A stretch of DNA of 41,936 nucleotides from Bacteroidia bacterium (lineage in GTDB: Bacteria > Bacteroidota > Bacteroidia > M30B66): positions 1 to 41,936 of the forward strand of contig JAGYKL010000029.1 in assembly GCA_018401705.1 (NCBI GenBank). The letters are read 5' to 3'. The position numbers and the translations under genes were made by a program. Below, in pieces: positions 251 through 41,936 of this stretch. Position 1 is the stretch's first letter, and every line of letters begins with the position of its first letter. The notes beneath the pieces were generated by a model, which made no database searches, was not told the origin of the DNA, and saw nothing but the letters and a program-made list of their open reading frames with translations.

Positions 251-2086
251 ATGTCAGCAATGGATTCAACACACAAAGAAGAACTAAACGTTCAAACAGC
301 ACATGTTGAACATACTCATGATCATGCAGACGAACATCATCATGAAGATACGTTCATTTCAAAATACATTTTCTCTCATGACCATAAAATGATCTCAAAG
401 CAGTTTCTTATTACTGCGATTTTTATGGCTGTTATTGCTATGATGATGTCTATAGTCTTTAGACTTCAATTGGCTTGGCCAGGGAAAAGTTTCCCAATAT
501 TAGAGCCGATCTTAGGCAAATGGGCTCCTGGTGGAGTTCTTGATCCAAACTTTTACCTCGCACTTGTTACGATTCATGGTACTATCATGGTATTCTTTGT
601 GCTTACTGGAGGCTTAAGTGGTACTTTCTCGAACTTGCTAATTCCTCTTCAAATTGGCGCTAGGGATATGGCTTCTGGCTTTCTCAATATGCTTTCTTTC
701 TGGTTTTTTGCAGCTTCTTCAGTTGTTATGCTAGGTTCTGTTTTTATCGAATCAGGTCCAGCATCTGGAGGTTGGACAGTATATCCTCCTCTTTCTGCCT
801 TACCAGAAGCAATGCCAGGGTCGGGATTAGGTATGACATTGTGGCTCGTCTCTATGTCCCTATTCATCGTTTCTTCTCTTTTGGGATCACTAAATTATAT
901 TGTTACAATCATTAACCTTAGAACTAAAGGTATGTCTATGACAAGATTGCCTTTAACTATTTGGGCTTTCCTTGTAACAGCAATTTTAGGTGTACTTTCA
1001 TTTCCTGTATTATTTGCTGCTGCATTATTATTGATTTTCGATCGTAGCTTTGGGACTAGTTTTTACTTAAGCGATATTTACATCGGAGGTCAAGCACTAG
1101 AATACAATGGAGGTAGTCCAATCCTTTATGAACACTTATTCTGGTTCTTAGGGCATCCTGAAGTATATATTGTTCTCTTGCCAGCTTTAGGTATTACTTC
1201 TGAGGTGATTGCAACTAACGCACGTAAACCTATTTTTGGTTACAGAGCGATGATTGCTTCTATACTTGGGATTGCTTTTCTTTCATTTATTGTTTGGGGA
1301 CACCATATGTTCATTACAGGAATGAATCCGTTCCTTGGCTCTGTGTTTGTATTTACCACACTACTAATTGCCATACCTTCAGCAGTTAAAGCATTCAACT
1401 ATATTACTACCCTCTGGAAAGGTAATTTGCAGTTTACCCCAGGAATGTTATTTGCCATTGGACTTGTTTCATTTTTCATTACAGGTGGTGTTACTGGTTT
1501 GATTTTGGGAGATTCCGCATTAGATATTAATGTTCACGACACTTATTTTGTGGTAGCCCACTTTCACCTTGTAATGGGTTCTGCAGCTATTTTTGGTATG
1601 TTCGCAGGTATCTATCATTGGTTCCCGAGAATGTTTGGAAGAGTGATGAACAAAAAAATGGGTTATGCTCACTTTTGGTTAACTTTTGCTGGTGCTTATG
1701 GAGTATTTTTTCCTATGCACTTCTTAGGAATGGCTGGTGTTCCACGTCGTTACTATTCAAACACAGAATTTCCAATATTCAATGATTTAGTAGATATTAA
1801 TGTATTAGTTACTTGGTTTGCTATCTTGGCTGCTACTGCTCAAGCAATATTCTTGTTCAATTTCTTTTACAGTATTTTTAAAGGACAAAAATCAAGTCAA
1901 AATCCTTGGAGGTCAAACACACTAGAGTGGACGGCTCCTGTTAAACATATTCATGGAAATTGGCCAGGAGCTCTACCTGAGGTTCATCGTTGGGCCTATG
2001 ATTATAGCAAGCCTGACAGAGAAGAAGATTTTGTTCCACAAGATGTTCCTATGACTGAAAAAGAATTGGCAGAAGGAGAACATTAA
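251..2086 (+). CDS. coxA: Cytochrome c oxidase subunit I
   Basis: This is the catalytic membrane subunit of an aa3-type oxygen reductase, which reduces O2 to water and pumps protons. The 611-residue protein has about 12 hydrophobic segments. All metal-ligand motifs are present: His109 (IHGT, heme a), His302 in HPEVY with the cross-linked Tyr306 (CuB), the pair His351-His352 (CuB), and His437/His439 in AHFHLV (heme a3 and heme a). The first 40 residues are cytoplasmic and unusually rich in His, Asp and Glu. The start is supported by a purine-rich stretch (GAAGAAGGAT) immediately upstream of the ATG. It follows coxB, and a strong hairpin lies behind it, so it is the last gene of its operon. Confidence 0.96.
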   Translation: MSAMDSTHKEELNVQTAHVEHTHDHADEHHHEDTFISKYIFSHDHKMISKQFLITAIFMAVIAMMMSIVFRLQLAWPGKSFPILEPILGKWAPGGVLDPNFYLALVTIHGTIMVFFVLTGGLSGTFSNLLIPLQIGARDMASGFLNMLSFWFFAASSVVMLGSVFIESGPASGGWTVYPPLSALPEAMPGSGLGMTLWLVSMSLFIVSSLLGSLNYIVTIINLRTKGMSMTRLPLTIWAFLVTAILGVLSFPVLFAAALLLIFDRSFGTSFYLSDIYIGGQALEYNGGSPILYEHLFWFLGHPEVYIVLLPALGITSEVIATNARKPIFGYRAMIASILGIAFLSFIVWGHHMFITGMNPFLGSVFVFTTLLIAIPSAVKAFNYITTLWKGNLQFTPGMLFAIGLVSFFITGGVTGLILGDSALDINVHDTYFVVAHFHLVMGSAAIFGMFAGIYHWFPRMFGRVMNKKMGYAHFWLTFAGAYGVFFPMHFLGMAGVPRRYYSNTEFPIFNDLVDINVLVTWFAILAATAQAIFLFNFFYSIFKGQKSSQNPWRSNTLEWTAPVKHIHGNWPGALPEVHRWAYDYSKPDREEDFVPQDVPMTEKELAEGEH

Positions 2087-2102
2087 ATTCTTTTTATTAA
2101 AC

Positions 2103-2149
2103 AACGAAGCAAACGTTCCTCGCTATAAGAGGGACGTTTGTCGTTTTAA
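2103..2149 (+). terminator. Terminator after coxA
   Basis: A hairpin with 12-base arms (2110-2121 and 2129-2140, one T-G wobble) and a 7-base loop. A shorter outer pair, AACGA/TCGTT, extends it, and TTTT follows. It lies 16 bases after the coxA stop and 33 bases before ruvB, so it should end the cox transcript. Confidence 0.75.
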
Positions 2150-2181
2150 GCAATGTCATTTCATTTGTATATTGCAACTAA

Positions 2182-3204
2182 ATGAATCCAAACCTTAATC
2201 CAGAAATAAATCATTTAACTGCAAAGGACAAAGAACTTGAGAAGGTTCTTAGGCCCGCTTCCTTTGAAGATTTCTCAGGGCAATCAGCTGTGCTAGCTAA
2301 TTTGCAGATATTTGTTGAAGCAGCAAAAATGCGCAATGAAGCATTAGACCACGTTCTACTTCATGGTCCTCCCGGATTAGGTAAAACAACTCTAGCTCAA
2401 ATAATTGCTAACGAACTTGGCGTTGGAATGAAAACGTCATCAGGACCTGTCCTTGATAAACCAGGGGACTTGGCCGGCTTATTAACTAACCTAGAAGCTC
2501 ATGATGTTTTGTTCATCGATGAGATACATAGACTTAGCCCTGTTGTTGAAGAGTACTTATATTCTGCTATGGAAGATTATAAGATAGATATCATGATTGA
2601 GAGTGGACCAAATGCTAGATCAATTCAAATCGAATTAAATCCATTTACATTAATAGGAGCTACCACTCGCTCAGGATTACTGACTGCTCCATTAAGAGCG
2701 AGATTTGGCATAAACTCGAGATTGAGTTATTATGATCAAAAACTACTCACTAAAATTGTTAAACGGGCATCTAGTATTCTCAATATAGACATATTAGATA
2801 ATGCCGCTAAAGAAATTGCAGGACGTAGTCGAGGCACACCTCGAATAGCAAATGCTTTATTAAGACGAGTGCGCGATTTTGCAATGGTTAAGGGAGATGG
2901 AAAAATCACAAAAGAGATTACAGATATTGCACTAGATGCATTGCATGTAGATAAGTTCGGGCTTGATGAAATGGATAATAGAATATTAAGAACGCTTATT
3001 GAGAAGTTTAAAGGAGGACCTGTCGGACTAAATACCATTGCTACCGCATGCGGAGAAGATGCAGAAACAATCGAAGAGGTTTATGAACCCTTCTTAATCC
3101 AGGAAGGATTTATCGTTAGAACTCCAAGAGGAAGAGAAGTAACCGATTTAGCTTTTAAGCATTTGGGCATGAGTAGAATTGGTCGTCAAGGAGGCTTATT
3201 CTAA
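2182..3204 (+). CDS. ruvB: Holliday junction branch migration helicase RuvB
   Basis: RuvB is the hexameric AAA+ motor that drives Holliday junction branch migration with RuvA during recombinational repair. At 340 residues the length is standard. Visible in order: the N-terminal [12 protein letters not shown] segment, Walker [10 protein letters not shown], Walker B FIDEIHR, the GATTRSG sensor region, the arginine-finger segment PLRARFGI, and the C-terminal winged-helix domain that ends with TPRGREVT. ruvA and ruvC are not adjacent, which is common in Bacteroidota. queG follows after 5 bases on the same strand, so the two probably share a transcript. Confidence 0.97.
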
Positions 3205-3209
3205 ACCCT

Positions 3210-4163
3210 GTGACAGTAAAAGAACATACTGAATACGACAGAAGTCTCATTGTTAAGCAATTAGCGTATAACAATGGATTTCAATATGTTGGAATTTCAA
3301 AGGCTGGGCCTTTGGAAAATGAAGCAAGAAAACTTGAGGAATGGTTAAATAAAGGTATGAACGGAAAAATGAGCTATATGTCAAATCATTTTGACAAGCG
3401 AATTGACCCTACCCTACTAGTTCCTGGTGCTAAATCTGTTATATCTCTTTTGCTGAACTACTCTACTGATAAAGTTCAGAGTGATCCTAAATCACCTAAA
3501 ATATCAAAATATGCCTATGGGAAAGACTATCACTTTGTAATAAAGAAAAAGCTTAAAGCCCTTTTGAATGATATAACAACAGAATTAGGTGAAGTAGATG
3601 GCCGAGTCTTTGTTGATTCAGCTCCGGTTATGGACAAAGCTTGGGCAGCAAAAAGTGGCTTAGGTTGGATTGGCAAGAATAGTAATCTAATTAATAAGCA
3701 ATCAGGCTCATTCTTCTTTCTCGCTGAACTTATTCTAGATCTAGAATTGGCTCCCGATGGCCCAATAAAAGACTATTGCGGCACTTGTACAAAGTGCATT
3801 GAAGCATGTCCAACTGATGCAATAGTATCTCCTTTTGTTGTGGATGGCAGTAAGTGTATTTCCTATTTAACTATTGAACTCAAGGAATCAATTCATGAAT
3901 CTTGGAAATCAAAAATGGAAAACTGGGCATTTGGATGCGATATTTGCCAGGATGTTTGCCCTTGGAATCGATTTTCAAAAAATCATAATGAACCTGAGTT
4001 TTATCCCAAGGAAGGCTTAATCGATATGCATTCTGAAGAATGGCAGGAACTATCAGAAGATGTTTTTCAAAACTTATTTCGAGATTCGGCTGTTAAAAGA
4101 GCAGGATTTAACAAATTGAAATCCACTATCCATTTAATCAATTATGGGGTAAAGGAAAAATAA
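3210..4163 (+). CDS. queG: Epoxyqueuosine reductase QueG
   Basis: QueG is a cobalamin- and iron-sulfur-dependent cytosolic enzyme that reduces epoxyqueuosine to queuosine at the wobble base of tRNAs with GUN anticodons. The 317-residue protein has the N-terminal cobalamin-binding fold (motifs [11 protein letters not shown] and [10 protein letters not shown]) and two [4Fe-4S] cysteine clusters: [12 protein letters not shown] in the middle and [10 protein letters not shown] nearer the end. The start is GTG, 5 bases after the ruvB stop; no upstream in-frame ATG is available and the N-terminus aligns well from here. It is convergent with ubiX, with only 3 bases between the stops. Confidence 0.94.
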
Positions 4164-4166
4164 TTT

Positions 4167-4724
4167 TCATTTTTTCGCCCATCGGTAAGTATCTTGTTTA
4201 ATTCCAACCAAATCAAGCACTCTGTCCACAACCGTTAATGCTAATTCTTCCAACGTTTGGGGTTTGCTATAAAATGAAGGAGTAGCTGGACAAATGATAG
4301 CGCCCGACTCAGTAAGTGAGGTCATATTTCGTAAATGCACCAAATTATAAGGAGTATCTCTTGCGACTAAAATAAGCTTCCTTCTTTCTTTGAGCATCAC
4401 ATCTGCTGCTCTAGTAATAAGATCATCAGATATACCATTTGCAATTCTTCCCATAGTTCCCATAGAACATGGACAAATTATTAAAGCATCATAACCAGCA
4501 GAGCCTGATGCAAATGGAGCAAAGAAATCAGTCCTCTCATACGTAGCAAATGGAAGAGTATTGAATCTTTCATTACCAAGCTCAAATTTCCATACATCTT
4601 TTGCATTTGAGCTGAATACAACGCCTACTTCAGAAATCTGATCTCTGTTAGCATCTAATTTTCCAAGCAATAAATCGGCGTAGATTGACCCGCTTGCTCC
4701 AGTGATTCCAATGGCAATTTTCAT
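4167..4724 (-). CDS. ubiX: Flavin prenyltransferase UbiX
   Basis: UbiX attaches a dimethylallyl unit to FMN to make the prenylated flavin cofactor of UbiD-type decarboxylases. In a Bacteroidota organism, which makes menaquinone, the partner UbiD-like enzyme is not in this window. The 185-residue protein starts with the flavoprotein loop GITGASGSIYA and has the CPCSMGTMGRIANG motif and the family's RKLILVARDTP motif. It is the last gene of a minus-strand run and lies 9 bases after the beta-barrel gene, so it is probably read through from the envelope operon although its job is cytoplasmic. Confidence 0.93.
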   Translation of the reverse strand: MKIAIGITGASGSIYADLLLGKLDANRDQISEVGVVFSSNAKDVWKFELGNERFNTLPFATYERTDFFAPFASGSAGYDALIICPCSMGTMGRIANGISDDLITRAADVMLKERRKLILVARDTPYNLVHLRNMTSLTESGAIICPATPSFYSKPQTLEELALTVVDRVLDLVGIKQDTYRWAKK

Positions 4725-4733
4725 ATTTGATTG

Positions 4734-5363
4734 CTAAAAGTTATAAAATACACGTCCCATAACACTTTTGTTAAGTTGGCCTCTTGTCAATCTAAAGCTC
4801 GCTTGTTGATCAAAGTTTCGAACTGGAAGAATACTATTTGAAGCTCTAACATTTAATGACCAATTTTCATTAAGTTTCCAAATCACCCCTAAATTTCCAG
4901 ACAAATCAAATTTTTTAAATTGCTCTCTTGCAGATAGAATTCCAACAAATTCACCATTGATATCCTCTTCTTTATGCCCAACATAAACTCCTAAAGATGG
5001 CCCACCTTCAATGACTATCTTATTTGAAAACTCGTATTGCAAAAGCACAGGAAGCTCTATATAATGAATTCTCAATAGGTAATAAGATGAAGCGGGGTCT
5101 TCTGGCCCGATATTTTTTTTACTCCCTTTACCTAAATAGGTCATTTCCAGTTGCCAATTGAGCTTATCAGTTAGTTCGCGATTGACATAAATACCTGCAT
5201 TAGGGCTTATTCTATTAAAGCCTCCTAAATCATCACCAGAGATTTGACTTGTATTAAACCCGGCAATAATACCAGCTTCAAATCCTTGGGAATATGAAAC
5301 TAGAGATAAAAGAAAAAACCCGGAAGTTAGAAGCAGCCGGGTCTTAGTAAATTTTAAAATCAT
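4734..5363 (-). CDS. Outer-membrane beta-barrel protein (PorT-like family)
   Basis: The product is 209 residues with a signal peptide (cleavage likely after the Ser-Tyr-Ser-Gln region near residue 27). The rest alternates short hydrophobic beta strands and polar turns and ends in a terminal aromatic (VFYNF), the usual signal for outer-membrane barrel insertion. The beginning, GFEAGIIAGFNTSQISGDD, is typical of the small PorT-type beta-barrel proteins of Bacteroidota, which are mostly of unknown function. It starts 2 bases after the Omp28-like lipoprotein gene and is followed by ubiX, so it belongs to the six-gene operon. No specific substrate or partner can be read from the sequence. Confidence 0.75.
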   Translation of the reverse strand: MILKFTKTRLLLTSGFFLLSLVSYSQGFEAGIIAGFNTSQISGDDLGGFNRISPNAGIYVNRELTDKLNWQLEMTYLGKGSKKNIGPEDPASSYYLLRIHYIELPVLLQYEFSNKIVIEGGPSLGVYVGHKEEDINGEFVGILSAREQFKKFDLSGNLGVIWKLNENWSLNVRASNSILPVRNFDQQASFRLTRGQLNKSVMGRVFYNF

Positions 5364-27901: not shown

Positions 27902-28510
27902 ATGGAGACGCAGGACCTTATAAAAAGAATTGTTGATGGCGACGAAGTGGCTTTTGAAAAACTATTCAGAATTTTCTATAAGCCGCTTTGTGGATATGCT
28001 TTTGGCTTTCTCAAAGATTCTGATGCTGCTGAAGAAATAGTTCAGGATGTTCTCGTTAATATATGGCAATCGCGAAGTACGTTTCATATTGAAACAGCAA
28101 TTAGAGCTTACCTTTATAGAGCTGTTCATAATAGGTGTTTGAATTTTATTAGGCACGAAAAAATTAAGCAGCAGCATCAATCTTATACGGTTTCGATTAA
28201 CGAGCATAGCTATGAATCGGCTGGTTCGAGGTTAGCGGTAAGTGAACTCAAACAAAAAATAGATGATGCCCTTGAAGCCTTACCGCCCGGCTGCAGACAG
28301 GTTTTTCGTTTGAGCAGAATGGATGGTTTGTCATATAAAGAAATTGCCGACTTGCTTGAGATTTCTGTTAAAACAGTTGAGAATCAAATGGGCAAGGCCC
28401 TGAAATTAATGAGAATACATCTTGCTGATTTTCTTGTTTGGTTCATTTTTCTGTCATTGATAAATAATTTTGTTTTTGCGTGGGGGTATTTTCCACACGA
28501 AGTGTTTTAA
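27902..28510 (+). CDS. ECF RNA polymerase sigma factor (sigma-70 family, FecI-like)
   Basis: This ECF sigma factor has region 2 (about residues 18-90: FYKPLCGYAFGFLKDSDAAEEIVQDVLVNIWQSR) split from region 4 (about 115-170: PPGCRQVFRLSRMDGLSYKEIA, LLEISVKTVENQM), with the usual helix-turn-helix. After region 4 the last about 28 residues (DFLVWFIFLSLINNF and on) are strongly hydrophobic, as in some Bacteroidota ECF factors. A FecR gene follows after 11 bases, so it is a FecI-type factor held by its anti-sigma partner until a signal arrives. Its promoter is of the housekeeping type, with no sign of autoregulation. Confidence 0.9.
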   Translation: METQDLIKRIVDGDEVAFEKLFRIFYKPLCGYAFGFLKDSDAAEEIVQDVLVNIWQSRSTFHIETAIRAYLYRAVHNRCLNFIRHEKIKQQHQSYTVSINEHSYESAGSRLAVSELKQKIDDALEALPPGCRQVFRLSRMDGLSYKEIADLLEISVKTVENQMGKALKLMRIHLADFLVWFIFLSLINNFVFAWGYFPHEVF

Positions 28511-28521
28511 GAATAGTATAA

Positions 28522-29529
28522 ATGTCGCTCAATCAAATTTCAGAAGATCTAATAGCCCGCTACCTTAGCGGAGAAGCCACCAAGGGAGAAATTCGCGAGG
28601 TTGAGTCATGGGCAAATGAATCTGAAAATAACACTACAATTCTAGAGCAATATCGAAAGCTATGGTTACTAACGGCAAATGCCGAAATTCCTGAAGTTGA
28701 CGAAGAACAAGCTTGGTTAAAGATGAAGCTTAGAATGCGCGAAGACGCCGCGCAAACTAAGGAGGCTGAAATAATTCCACTTAAGAGTGGCAAAAGCTTT
28801 CCATTCTTAAGAGTAGCTGCAGGTATCTCTATATTGCTTTTAATAAGCTCATTGGTTTACTTTTTTAACATCAATGAGAAAGCAGTAAAATATGTGGCAG
28901 GAAATGAGCAAATGGAAGTTTATCTGCCTGATTCAAGCAAAGTCATTCTGCAACCTAACTCTTTGCTAAGTTTCAGTGAGTCTGACTATGCCAAAGAATC
29001 AAGAAGCATGGAACTTTCAGGAGAAGCATATTTTGATGTTAGACGTAATGAATCATCTCCATTTATTGTTTCCGTGAGCAAATCCCAAGTACAGGTTCTT
29101 GGAACTTCATTTAGAATAAAACAAAACTCAAATTCTGTTCAAGTTGCAGTAATCACGGGTAAAGTTGAATTAAGAAGTAAAGAATCGAACAGAGCTAAAC
29201 AAATACTTACTCCCGGATTAGAAGGTATATTAAATGAATCAGAAGGTAATATTTCAGTTGACAGCATTTCGACTGAAGAATTAGGCTATCAATTACATAG
29301 AACATTAGTCTTTGAAGAAACTGACCTAAAACAAGTTTGTAAAACACTAAGTGGGATATTTCATACAGATGTTTCATTAAGCACTTCAAACCTGGAGTTG
29401 TGTTTACTAACTGCCACCTTTAAGAATCAAAGCTTAAGTGAAATACTTGAGATTGTTGCAAGTACATTTAATTTAGAACTTAAAGAAAGTGGCAAAGGAT
29501 ACGCCCTTCATGGAACAGGATGTGATTAA
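28522..29529 (+). CDS. FecR-family anti-sigma factor
   Basis: The 335-residue protein passes the inner membrane once. Residues 1-85 are the cytoplasmic sigma-binding part (LIARYLSGEATKGEIREVESWA). A hydrophobic helix follows at about 93-113 (FLRVAAGISILLLISSLVYFF region), then the periplasmic FecR domain (about 125-220: VYLPDSSKVILQPNS, GEAYFDVRRNESSPFIV) and a C-terminal STN-like DUF4974 part (about 255-330). The known role is to take up a signal from an outer-membrane partner and control the sigma factor. It sits 11 bases after the sigma gene and overlaps the next gene by 20 bases, which ties all three together. Confidence 0.92.
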   Translation: MSLNQISEDLIARYLSGEATKGEIREVESWANESENNTTILEQYRKLWLLTANAEIPEVDEEQAWLKMKLRMREDAAQTKEAEIIPLKSGKSFPFLRVAAGISILLLISSLVYFFNINEKAVKYVAGNEQMEVYLPDSSKVILQPNSLLSFSESDYAKESRSMELSGEAYFDVRRNESSPFIVSVSKSQVQVLGTSFRIKQNSNSVQVAVITGKVELRSKESNRAKQILTPGLEGILNESEGNISVDSISTEELGYQLHRTLVFEETDLKQVCKTLSGIFHTDVSLSTSNLELCLLTATFKNQSLSEILEIVASTFNLELKESGKGYALHGTGCD

Positions 29530-31441
29530 AGGCTTTCTAATCTTGTTTTTTAGCTGGATGATTATTTCAGCGCAAGCGCAGGATGACCCCTTGATGCGTC
29601 GCATTACTTTATCAACCGGGAAAACTAAAATAAATGATGCACTTAATCAGGTTTCTGTTGCCGGGAAATTCTATTTCAGCTACAATTCATCAGGAATCGA
29701 CGAGAGTAAAATGGTACAAATTGATGTATCCAGAAAAACCGTAAGAAACACGTTAGAGATAATCTTAGGAAAGGAGTACATTTTTAAATCAGGAGGAAAT
29801 CATGTAATCATCCTGCCGAGGGCAGGAAAAAACTCAGGAAAGTCGAATCAAACATACAGAATTACTGGTGTTGTAAAGGATGCGCAAACAGGTAAAACAA
29901 TTTCTTCTGTATCGATTATTGAACTAGGAGAAAGGAATACGACTTCAAGTGATCAAAGCGGAACATATCAATTACCAATTAAAGGCAATGCTGAGTTTGC
30001 CAAAATCTTGGTAAGTAGAAAAAACTATCGAGATACGGTTATCACTATTAAACCTGAAGCAAATACACAAATAAGCATTCCTTTAAGGCCTCTGCCTCAA
30101 ATTGAGAAACTCAATTCTCTAAATGCAACTGTTCCGGTTGAAATGGAAGAGAATGGTTTGTTTAGAACTGTTGTTTCTGAGCAGCAGCAAATACTTAGCT
30201 ATAATTTACCCTTGTATGAACAAAGAAATTTTCAAGCATCATTTGTTCCCAATTTAGGTACAAACAAGAGTTTCTCTGGACTAGTTGAAAACCACGTATC
30301 TTTTAATGCTATTGGAGGATACTCAATGGCTCTTAGTGGCTTTGAGTTAGCAGGCATGTTCAATATCACCAGACGCCATGTTCGGGGAGCACAAATTGGT
30401 GGCTTTATGAATATTACGGGTGGACAATTAAGTGGCTTTCAACTGGCTGGATTCATGAATAATAATATTGGAGCAATTCATGGAGTTCAAACTGCGGGGT
30501 TCTATAATCTTTCTTTAGATTCACTGAAAGGAATTCAGCTAGCTGGCTTTTTCAACATGGCTCGTAACAGGGTTCGAGGTGTTCAGAGCGCTGGTTTTTT
30601 AAACATCTCAGGCAAAGAACTTAGAGGTGTTCAAATGGCTGGTTTTTTCAATCTCAGCGGAAAAGATGCCCGAGGGGCTCAATTATCAGGGTTTTGCAAT
30701 ATTGCAACAGGCGATATGTTTGGTGTTCAGGCTGCGGGAATGCTAAATTTAAGTACTGGAAACTTAAAAGGAGCGCAACTTTCTGGAGGCATTAACCTTA
30801 CACTGGATACAACTAATACAGTCCAGATAGCCACAATTTCAAATTTTGCCAGAGTAATCTACGGTACTCAGATATCTCTTTTCAATATTGCAGGCGAAGT
30901 TGGCGGATCTCAGGTAGGCCTCATTAATTATTGCGATACTGTTAATGGCTTACCACTTGGTTTAATAAGCATTGTAAGGAAGGGCGTACATCAACTTGAA
31001 TTTGCAAGTTCAGATGTAAGTGATTTATTGGTGACATTAAAGACTGGAACTCATAGATTGTATAATGTGCTAAGCGCTGGTATGTTCAATCTTAATAATG
31101 CTTCTTTGGCAAGTTTTGGCTATGGACTTGGTTCAATGAGTAAGCACAGAACTAAGCTTGGAGGAGGCGGAGAATTTGTGCTATCATTAGTTTTCAATGA
31201 AGCTTTTGATTTTGGTGTTTTTCCCGATACATGGGGCAGAGTGCATCCTTTCTTTTCATACAAACCTCTTAAATGGTTACAGCTAACTGCAGGGCCAAGT
31301 ATTCAAATTTACTGGATAGATCAGTCAAATATTTCAGGCCTACGGCCGGATGAGAAATTGGGCAGTGCAGTTAAGTTTTCGAATCACACCGGTAGCGGAA
31401 CAGCATGGCTGGGATGGCAATTTGGCATTAGATTATTTTGA
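29510..31441 (+). CDS. STN-domain protein with 16-residue surface repeats (LA_2272 type)
   Basis: In order: a signal peptide (1-24); an STN domain (about 29-103: RITLSTGKTKINDALNQVS, VRNTLEIILG), which in TonB signalling receptors contacts FecR; a CarboxypepD_reg-like domain (about 117-192: ITGVVKDAQTGKTISSVSI); ten tandem 16-residue units (277-436; pattern GxQxAGFxNxxxxxxx) resembling the LA_2272 surface repeats; and a barrel-like end (WLGWQFGIRLF). It lacks a TonB plug and the usual transporter barrel, so it looks like a signalling receptor without transport. The ATG at 29510, inside fecR, is preferred to the GTG at 29489. See the repeat feature and findings. Confidence 0.8.
   Translation: MEQDVIKGFLILFFSWMIISAQAQDDPLMRRITLSTGKTKINDALNQVSVAGKFYFSYNSSGIDESKMVQIDVSRKTVRNTLEIILGKEYIFKSGGNHVIILPRAGKNSGKSNQTYRITGVVKDAQTGKTISSVSIIELGERNTTSSDQSGTYQLPIKGNAEFAKILVSRKNYRDTVITIKPEANTQISIPLRPLPQIEKLNSLNATVPVEMEENGLFRTVVSEQQQILSYNLPLYEQRNFQASFVPNLGTNKSFSGLVENHVSFNAIGGYSMALSGFELAGMFNITRRHVRGAQIGGFMNITGGQLSGFQLAGFMNNNIGAIHGVQTAGFYNLSLDSLKGIQLAGFFNMARNRVRGVQSAGFLNISGKELRGVQMAGFFNLSGKDARGAQLSGFCNIATGDMFGVQAAGMLNLSTGNLKGAQLSGGINLTLDTTNTVQIATISNFARVIYGTQISLFNIAGEVGGSQVGLINYCDTVNGLPLGLISIVRKGVHQLEFASSDVSDLLVTLKTGTHRLYNVLSAGMFNLNNASLASFGYGLGSMSKHRTKLGGGGEFVLSLVFNEAFDFGVFPDTWGRVHPFFSYKPLKWLQLTAGPSIQIYWIDQSNISGLRPDEKLGSAVKFSNHTGSGTAWLGWQFGIRLF
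30338..30817 (+). repeat. Ten tandem 48-bp coding units (16-residue repeats)
   Basis: The units run GFELAGMFNITRRHVR, GAQIGGFMNITGGQLS, GFQLAGFMNNNIGAIH and so on, each exactly 16 codons. Gly, Gln, Gly-Phe and Asn are conserved while the seven or so residues after Asn vary. The DNA has diverged between units, so this is an old protein repeat, not a recent expansion. Further irregular units (14-15 residues) continue to about residue 482. Confidence 0.85.
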
Positions 31442-39601: not shown

Positions 39602-39749
39602 TAATTTAAAGGCTTATTTAATCCGACTTCTTGGAGCTAATTGTATTGCACTGTTCGCGAAGGCTTTATATTCAACTTGAAAATAAATTGAAAAAGGCAT
39701 AGGGGTAAAATCAAGTATGCGTGTTTTGAGCATATAAGAAGTAAATTAT

Positions 39750-40964
39750 ATGAAACTCGCAGTATACTCTTTGGCTTTAACACTTTTGACTACTATATCA
39801 ATAGCTCAAGACACAACTAAAACATTAACTCATCCTATACAATTTTCGGTAATTCCGCCATTAAGCACCAATGGAGCGGCCAACGAAAACAGCATTAACA
39901 CTCTTTCATTTAATCTTCTTGCTGGTTATTCTGGGGGCATTGAAGGATTAGAAATGGGTGGCTTTGCCAACATTGTAAAAAACGATGTAAATGGAGCACA
40001 AATGGCAGGTTTTGCCAACATAGTTGGCGGAAGTACCCAAGGTTTACAAATGGCAGGCTTTGCCAATGTGAATCAAAAATCTGTTGAGGGCATACAGATG
40101 GCTGGCTTCACCAACGTTGTGAGTGATAGCATTAAAGCCATACAATTAGCTGGATTTTCAAATGTGGTGAGCGGTTCTGTTCAAGGTGTTCAAGCAGCTG
40201 GCTTTATGAATCTGGCAACGACTGGAGTTACTGGACCTCAAATTTCGGGCTTTCTCAATATGAGCAGAGGCAAAATTAAAGGCTCCCAACTCAGTGGCTT
40301 TTATAATTTATCTGTCGACACCATTGATGGAGCTCAATTAGCAGGATTTATGAATATTTCTGCAAAAAGAATTCAGGGCGCTCAGATTTCAGGATTCCTT
40401 AACGTTGCTCAAGCTCTTTCGGGTGTTCAATTAGGTGTTATAAATATCGCAGACACGCTTGAAAATGGCAGCCCTTTCGGATTTTTAAGTTTCATAAGAA
40501 AAGGGGGATTCATGGCAGTAGAAATTACGGGCGATGAAACATTCTACGCAGGGCTGCAATTCAAAACTGGAAGCAACATATTTTACAACATTTTAAACAT
40601 TGCTGGACGACCAGGCTCAACAGCATACTGGGGATTTGGTTACGGCGTAGGCTCAAACTTGAAGTCATATGGCAAACTGAGAATCAATCTAGATCTGACT
40701 GCCACTCAGGTTAATCGGAATGAATTCTGGACCAATCACCTTAACCTCCTTAGTAGGGCTAAACTTGGTTTTACATGGCAAGCGGCAAAACACTTTGCAA
40801 TAAGTGCAGGCCCCACATTCAACGTGCTTACGCTAAACAAATCCAATTCTGAAGGAATTGCAAGTCTTAAAACCGTAGCTCCTTATTCAGTTTACGACGA
40901 AGTCCATTCTAATAACACGAGACTAATCATGTGGCCTGGAGCTCACCTAAGTCTGCGCTTCTAA
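39750..40964 (+). CDS. 16-residue-repeat surface protein (LA_2272 type)
   Basis: The 404-residue protein has a signal peptide (1-20; LTLLTTISIAQ), a short leader, then about ten 16-residue units (66-224; pattern GxQxAGFxN) and a beta-rich C-terminal domain (about 240-404) ending WPGAHLSLRF. The C-terminal domain matches that of the STN-fused protein at 29510: SPFGFLSFIRKGG resembles LPLGLISIVRKGV, and FGYGVGS resembles FGYGLGS. There is no STN domain here. A TonB-dependent receptor starts 31 bases downstream, so the two are probably one operon. Function is unknown. Confidence 0.8.
   Translation: MKLAVYSLALTLLTTISIAQDTTKTLTHPIQFSVIPPLSTNGAANENSINTLSFNLLAGYSGGIEGLEMGGFANIVKNDVNGAQMAGFANIVGGSTQGLQMAGFANVNQKSVEGIQMAGFTNVVSDSIKAIQLAGFSNVVSGSVQGVQAAGFMNLATTGVTGPQISGFLNMSRGKIKGSQLSGFYNLSVDTIDGAQLAGFMNISAKRIQGAQISGFLNVAQALSGVQLGVINIADTLENGSPFGFLSFIRKGGFMAVEITGDETFYAGLQFKTGSNIFYNILNIAGRPGSTAYWGFGYGVGSNLKSYGKLRINLDLTATQVNRNEFWTNHLNLLSRAKLGFTWQAAKHFAISAGPTFNVLTLNKSNSEGIASLKTVAPYSVYDEVHSNNTRLIMWPGAHLSLRF
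39945..40421 (+). repeat. Ten tandem 48-bp coding units (16-residue repeats)
   Basis: The units run GLEMGGFANIVKNDVN, GAQMAGFANIVGGSTQ, GLQMAGFANVNQKSVE and so on, nine exactly 16 codons and the tenth 15. Gly, Gln, Gly-Phe and Asn are constant and the second half varies. The same unit occurs at 30338-30817, so the two proteins share an ancestral repeat array. Confidence 0.85.
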
Positions 40965-40995: not shown

Positions 40996-41936
40996 ATGAA
41001 ACGAATCATATTCGCTTTGGGATTCCTTTGTCTTATAAATGCCTTAGACGCCCAAAATCCTTCACTTAGTCAAACAATTAGAGGCACAATAACAGACCAG
41101 CTCACTGAAACGCCAATACCGGGAGCAACAGTAATTTTAAATCCAAGTACTCCCTTAACAGGCACAACAACCAATCTAGATGGTGATTTCAGACTAAACA
41201 ATGTGCCTTTAGGCAGATACACACTAGTGGTGAATATGTTGGGTTATCAGGAAATGACAATTCCTAATGTTGTGGTTGGCAGTGGCAAGGAAATAATACT
41301 TCAAGTGAAACTTACCGAACATGCAGTTGAAATGAAAGCTGTTGAAATAACAGCAGGTGGCACAAATAAAACAGAAGCTCTCAATGAACTTACAACGGTG
41401 AGTGCCCGCCAATTTTCAATTGAAGAAACAAAACGCTACGCAGGGGCTCTAAACGATCCCGGAAGGATGGTTCAGTCATTTGCCGGTGTTACGTTTAATG
41501 CCGATGGAAATAATGAAATTGTGGTTAGAGGCAATTCGCCTCGCGGAGTGCTTTGGCGAATGGAAGGCATTGAAATTCCAAATCCAAATCACTTCTCAAA
41601 TCAGGGTGCATCGGGTGGAGCAATAAGTATGTTAAGCAATAACATGATGGCAAATTCTGATTTCCTAAGCGGAGCTTTCCCTGCTGATTATGGCAATGCG
41701 GCTTCAGGTGTTTTTGACATGAGATTAAGAAAAGGGAATAATGAAAAGCGCGAGACTGCTTTTCAGCTTGGTGTCATTGGCACAGACGTCGCCCTGGAAG
41801 GGCCAATAGATAAAGTGGCAGGCAGCTCTTACCTCGTAAATTACAGATATTCATCACTTTCTATGCTTCAAAAACTGGGTGTTGAAATTGTGGGTGATGC
41901 GATTCCTGTGTTTCAGGATTTGTCTTTTAACATAAA
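40996..41936 (+). CDS. TonB-dependent receptor, N-terminal part (cut by window end)
   Basis: This gene continues past the window; 313 codons are visible. In order: a signal peptide (1-20; FALGFLCLINALDAQ), a CarboxypepD_reg-like domain (about 28-110: IRGTITDQLTETPIPGATVIL, and LGRYTLVVNMLGYQ), then a plug domain (about 130-250: NEIVVRGNSPRGVLWRMEG, GGAISMLSNNMM, DFLSGAFPADYGNAASGVFDM). The barrel starts near the end (GVIGTDVALEGPID). It lacks an N-terminal STN domain, so it is a transporter type, not a signalling transducer. It starts 31 bases after the repeat-protein gene. Substrate unknown. Confidence 0.9.
   Translation, partial: MKRIIFALGFLCLINALDAQNPSLSQTIRGTITDQLTETPIPGATVILNPSTPLTGTTTNLDGDFRLNNVPLGRYTLVVNMLGYQEMTIPNVVVGSGKEIILQVKLTEHAVEMKAVEITAGGTNKTEALNELTTVSARQFSIEETKRYAGALNDPGRMVQSFAGVTFNADGNNEIVVRGNSPRGVLWRMEGIEIPNPNHFSNQGASGGAISMLSNNMMANSDFLSGAFPADYGNAASGVFDMRLRKGNNEKRETAFQLGVIGTDVALEGPIDKVAGSSYLVNYRYSSLSMLQKLGVEIVGDAIPVFQDLSFNI

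Follow-up and report, generated by a model that had tools for sequence, protein, structure and literature searches.

In the established view of FecI/FecR signalling, the import of a nutrient reports on itself by way of a plug driven by TonB. The window, a stretch of 41,936 nucleotides from a Bacteroidia bacterium, carries at positions 27902-31441 a sigma factor gene, a fecR gene and a third gene whose product has an STN signalling domain and no plug. As this plugless sensor proves to be a widespread variant, it is natural to ask how STN and FecR can work as a switch in the absence of TonB. The gene order, the domains, the predicted fold, the conservation of the locus, and a promoter-like motif with its positions were analysed in silico. 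We consider it probable that the locus represents a variant of FecI/FecR-type signalling: FecR would be held by a barrel that lacks a plug and stands on a periplasmic stalk, and this barrel probably reports the state of the outer membrane.

The sigma, fecR and STN-protein genes

Analysis of the open reading frame coordinates showed an operon-like trio. The first gene (27902..28510, +) encodes an ECF sigma factor of 202 amino acids with a hydrophobic C-terminal tail, and a family search placed it in a Bacteroidetes ECF subfamily (TIGR02985, 5e-54). The second (28522..29529, +) encodes a FecR-type membrane anti-sigma factor of 335 amino acids (FecR 1.1e-18, FecR_C 1.5e-10), with a transmembrane segment at approximately residues 99-117 in a TM scan and a C-terminal FecR_C, an STN-like domain. 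It is the sole FecR_C gene found in this genome by family search. The third (29510..31441, +) encodes the plugless FecR partner, a protein of 643 amino acids comprised of STN, CPD/NTE, beta-solenoid and 8-strand barrel regions, as identified from profiles, an AlphaFold2 (AF2) model and structure matches. Its ATG at 29510 precedes the end of fecR at 29529, and both the gene order and the 20-base overlap that the earlier note had reported agree with these coordinates. The tail of the sigma factor (..HLADFLVWFIFLSLINNFVFAWGYF, positions 28424-28507 of the window) is hydrophobic and may anchor it at the membrane. Comparable hydrophobic tails are present on this system's sigma homologues and, less pronounced, on some other Bacteroidia FecI-type sigma factors.

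The third protein matched profiles for the LA_2272 repeat (1.4e-15), CarbopepD_reg_2 (5e-7) and STN (4.5e-4), the latter two under the Pfam cut-offs. The STN call holds despite its low score because the family and the structure both back it: Pfam STN was matched in 28 of 45 homologues (best 7e-12), and residues 29-110 (29594..29839, +) have a fold similar to the PupB NTSD from the PupR:PupB complex (6ovk_B, Z 9.4). The AF2 model was computed from a 45-sequence alignment, has a mean pLDDT of 89.8 and gives no membrane placement. Residues 114-199 (29849..30106, +) form a CarboxypepD_reg-like domain resembling the SusC N-terminal extension (NTE; 9hfj, Z 12.2, 25% identity; profile E 6e-9). From the repeat register and the model (pLDDT mostly 95-98), residues 235-486 (30212..30967, +) form a parallel beta-solenoid of 16-residue LA_2272-type repeats, predicted to be periplasmic, of which residues 235-481 resemble parallel beta-helix proteins (P22 tailspike 2xc1, Z 12.0 over 223 residues, 3.8 A). 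Within it, ten G-x-Q-x-x-G-x-x-N units are present at an exact 16-residue spacing between residues 277 and 421, which is far from chance. The chain is completed by an 8-strand outer-membrane beta-barrel, residues 489-643 (30974..31438, +; OprF Z 13.4, NspA 12.8, OmpA 11.8), with the C-terminal residues ..GIRLF.

Neither Plug nor TonB_dep_Rec was matched in any of the 45 family members using Pfam profiles. There was no obvious TonB box by eye in the linker (residues 200-236), although this motif varies too much for its absence to be firmly concluded. The domain reading made earlier from the sequence, namely an STN domain, a CarboxypepD_reg-like domain, ten 16-residue repeats, a barrel-like end and no plug, is thereby borne out. 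The note had also asked whether the repeats and the C-terminal part form a closed barrel; the model has an 8-strand barrel of the OmpA/OprF/NspA type at the C-terminus and the repeats as a separate parallel solenoid.

Relatives of the STN protein were present in 96 of 395 class-level genomes. We examined 44 full-length loci from approximately 21 Bacteroidia families, selected as high-scoring full-length matches; some of the genomes are related and the locus counts are thus not independent. The gene directly upstream is fecR in all 44 loci; it is on the same strand and either overlaps the STN gene or is at most 67 bases away. The sigma gene precedes fecR in 43, the exception (L053) having no recognisable sigma gene on the stretch examined. 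The fecR of the trio was the only FecR_C gene in 14 of the 22 trio-bearing genomes tested, this genome included. These results support the earlier suggestion that the STN partner and its sigma/fecR neighbours are a unit: sigma-fecR-STN is conserved, and the FecR partner is the plugless STN protein. Outside the class Bacteroidia, the relatives among the matches listed cover mainly the solenoid and barrel, without the STN stretch. A contig scan with an 8-member alignment gave matches only in uncultured MAGs.

The canonical arrangement is also present in other genomes of the class, and sometimes in the same genome. There, STN TonB-dependent receptors beside FecI/FecR share the sigma-fecR-STN order and the CPD/NTE domain after the STN, but contain both a plug and a large barrel (approximately 800-1240 amino acids). 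A canonical STN transporter as the true partner was set aside where the genome has a single FecR_C gene. That the Pfam model shows no other STN proteins is weak evidence, as it misses true copies in several genomes.

The promoter-like dyad and its predicted targets

A promoter-like dyad, TAGGGGTA-N14-TGTC(T/A)T, was discovered de novo. Among the upstream words of the sigma genes, TAGGG-N16-TTGTC was present in 11 loci, compared with at most three for any dyad in shuffles. A PWM was built from the sigma upstream regions only and then run over all of the loci. Matches scoring above 15 bits numbered 74 in the 1.24 Mb of strand sequence and 1-10 in first-order resampled sequence; above 20 bits, the corresponding figures were 51 and none. 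Module genes follow 67 of the 74 matches, with seven located elsewhere. The genes so preceded were fecR (20), sigma (14, which include the PWM training sites, the remaining sites being independent of training), an STN-less TonB-dependent receptor (14), an STN-less solenoid-barrel paralogue (12) and DUF2807 lipoproteins (7), with the motif mostly 20-100 bases from the gene start. Of 45 loci, 34 have the motif ahead of one of the two regulatory genes, sigma or fecR, and none has it ahead of both. Exact sites in 15 genomes numbered 25, compared with one for a reversed-pattern control, and several distal sites precede the same families on other contigs. Distal sites with one mismatch did not exceed the reversed control in frequency, and only those before a DUF2807 gene were taken into account. 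Position and co-occurrence suggest that this sigma factor reads the motif.

In the window's own family, the motif sites are fewer and less exact. The dyad TGGGGGTA-N14-TGTTTT (28481..28508, +; PWM core 18.9, zero mismatches) lies 41 bp before fecR, within the 3' end of the sigma gene, and TAGGGGTA-N14-TGTTTT (39700..39727, +; PWM core 21.8, zero mismatches) lies 50 bp before the paralogue. These two, at 28481 and 39700, are the only zero-mismatch occurrences of TRGGGGTA-N14-TGTYTT in the whole genome. No motif site was present before the sigma gene at this locus.

The paralogue (39750..40964, +) is an STN-less protein of 404 amino acids with a signal peptide, whose solenoid and 8-strand barrel are of the same kind as in the STN protein (repeats 44% identical; AF2 pLDDT 86; structure matches). 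Matches of its solenoid to LbH acyltransferases had an rmsd near 10 A and were taken to indicate only a 'parallel solenoid'. Approximately 30 bp after the paralogue is an STN-less TonB-dependent receptor with CPD and a marginal plug (40996..41936, +), which is cut by the contig end and is 76% identical to complete relatives at L022 and L024. The L022 copy matched CarboxypepD_reg and Plug (E 1.1e-4) in Pfam, and a PDB sequence search with the receptor gave no match. Two DUF2807 genes, located by family search on another contig of this genome, have motif scores of 18.6 and 20.4 bits, and their products look like lipoproteins. Toastrack domains, including DUF2807, have been linked to membrane-stress systems (PMC11237479). 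By analogy, the toastrack lipoproteins may point weakly to envelope homeostasis, this link coming from other phyla in which the domain is predicted to be cytoplasmic. The system has a promoter motif that is small and sharply defined. LA_2272-type solenoid-barrel proteins gain from it a predicted regulon, the first for this group, and DUF2807 lipoproteins in Bacteroidota are connected with a candidate regulator.

Two other sites were recorded. An exact motif site is present in genome G022, 51 bp before a secreted barrel-like protein of 206 amino acids (L143:1552-2170) that is outside the described regulon families. In this genome, a one-mismatch site (L136, G000:C13:27960-27987, minus strand) precedes a secreted protein of 226 amino acids, and may represent a further target or chance.

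The receptor bears on the nature of the signal, as the STN protein and a neighbouring STN-less receptor could act as a split transducer. The STN protein would then sense the occupancy or TonB-driven movement of the receptor, and an imported ligand would still be what is sensed. Consistent with this, an orthologous STN-less receptor of approximately 785 amino acids is nearby in 23 of 44 loci, downstream and on the same strand in 22, and bears the motif in 14. At L116, a standalone STN-like secreted protein of 156 amino acids (4462-4929, -) follows another sigma-fecR pair and is itself followed by an STN-less TonB-dependent receptor (1930-4290, -), a possible split transducer. However, in approximately half of the loci no receptor of this kind lies within about 6 kb, and where present the receptor resembles the paralogue and the lipoproteins in behaving as a target gene that has a promoter-like site to itself. 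We therefore regard a split transducer as unlikely at the trio. The earlier note proposed sensing without import, and the sensor itself is devoid of transport parts, but the same counts, a downstream receptor in approximately half of the loci and the motif in 14, make it possible that import is carried out by a separate protein within the same regulon.

Placement of the solenoid and barrel

In 8-strand outer-membrane barrels, both termini face the periplasm. The solenoid runs straight into the first barrel strand in the AF2 model, and an aromatic outer-membrane beta-signal ends the chain in most homologues. Given an 8-strand barrel with a C-terminal aromatic residue, both termini are expected to be periplasmic, and with them the STN, the NTE and the solenoid. 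We infer that the solenoid lies in the periplasm, and the earlier note's proposal that the repeats are a surface sensor is probably wrong. At approximately 14 rungs, the stalk would be near 70 A long, a figure obtained by arithmetic (approximately 4.8 A per rung) and not taken from the model. Variability in loop length adds little on the topology, as only loop 7-8 stands out and this loop is already extracellular by strand count.

Repeats that are extracellular and ligand-binding, perhaps in an autotransporter-like arrangement, would fit the NCBI name for the repeat ('surface repeat') and the resemblance of a solenoid directly before a C-terminal barrel to the autotransporter order. In autotransporters (type V), the barrel has 12 strands and its lumen holds the linker helix of the passenger. 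In contrast, the barrel here has 8 strands, is matched end to end by OmpA, OprF and NspA, and has no helix in the lumen or at the solenoid-barrel junction in the model. Moreover, the STN can reach FecR only from within the periplasm, and a solenoid at the surface would then require two crossings, and the beta-signal ending the chain in most homologues also argues against this placement, which we consider very unlikely. That the STN is vestigial or degenerate, in a structural outer-membrane protein merely co-transcribed with an unrelated sigma/anti-sigma pair, would fit the sub-cut-off STN score and the existence of STN-less copies of the same solenoid-barrel, but is highly improbable given that the STN copy is beside fecR in every one of the 44 loci, that the STN is kept across approximately 21 families, and that the STN-less copies do not occupy the third position of the trio.

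A proposed signalling model without a plug

In the favoured reading, a plugless barrel on a periplasmic stalk that holds FecR, the third protein would be anchored in the outer membrane by its small 8-strand barrel. At rest, contact between STN and FecR would keep FecR intact and the sigma factor bound. As the sensor has no plug, whatever triggers it must alter the barrel, the stalk or their surroundings; such a change of state, in the outer membrane or periplasm, would cause the contact to be lost or altered, FecR to be degraded and the sigma factor to be released. The freed sigma factor would then act at promoters of the dyad type. The predicted targets here are fecR-STN, the STN-less paralogue with the receptor behind it, and the two DUF2807 lipoproteins. 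With fecR-STN as a predicted target, the circuit would include negative feedback, and sites before sigma would add positive feedback. It is speculation that the paralogue could compete for whatever the sensor binds.

Binding of an STN domain to a FecR-type regulator is known from PupR:PupB (PMC7186176), and shields FoxR from proteolysis (PMC11637429). In these Pseudomonas systems, the signalling domain is already in contact with the regulator when no signal has yet arrived. The FecR of the trio carries the FecR_C counterpart, and the STN has a fold like that of PupB bound to PupR. The same contact would be the simplest reading here, and by analogy with these systems we infer both the contact and the direction of the switch. 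Taken as a single step, the state of the outer membrane as the signal is somewhat doubtful. More broadly, we tentatively propose a transporter-independent branch of cell-surface signalling that extends across the class Bacteroidia, in which an OmpA-size barrel on a periplasmic solenoid gauges the state of the outer membrane or periplasm and commands a small set of genes, namely those for toastrack lipoproteins, for a TonB-dependent receptor and for its own STN-less copy. Cell-surface signalling of this type would then not need to depend on nutrient import.

Like FecIRA, PupB-PupR and FoxA-FoxR, the system has an ECF sigma factor adjacent to FecR, a C-terminal STN-like domain on FecR, and a neighbouring outer-membrane protein with an N-terminal STN. 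It has no TonB-dependent transducer: its partner lacks the plug and 22-strand barrel and instead has an 8-strand barrel on a beta-solenoid, and its predicted regulon, unlike that of FecIRA-type systems, is not a siderophore operon. In the PUMA3 system of Pseudomonas aeruginosa (VreA-VreR-VreI), VreA is a 23-kDa, mainly soluble periplasmic STN protein that lacks a barrel and whose C-terminal domain is TolA/TonB-like (PMC2729926). VreA is likewise an STN partner that is not a TonB-dependent transporter, whereas the partner here has its own outer-membrane 8-strand barrel and solenoid. Given this precedent, the present system is a variant, and non-transporter STN partners are not new as such. The LA_2272 and VC2662 repeat proteins (NCBIfam NF047436, NF047437) share the repeat type of the solenoid, but these are short repeat or small-protein models without STN or NTE, and state no sigma/fecR link. 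No Bacteroidota cell-surface signalling with a plugless partner was found in the open-licence literature.

Other proteins encoded after sigma-fecR pairs were also noted. At L105 (2253-4838) and L106 (2172-4934), these are STN and CPD proteins of 862 and 921 amino acids, respectively, in which Pfam finds no plug. At L110 (3174-4397, -), a protein of 408 amino acids that begins like an STN and matches nothing in Pfam may represent another type of non-transporter partner.
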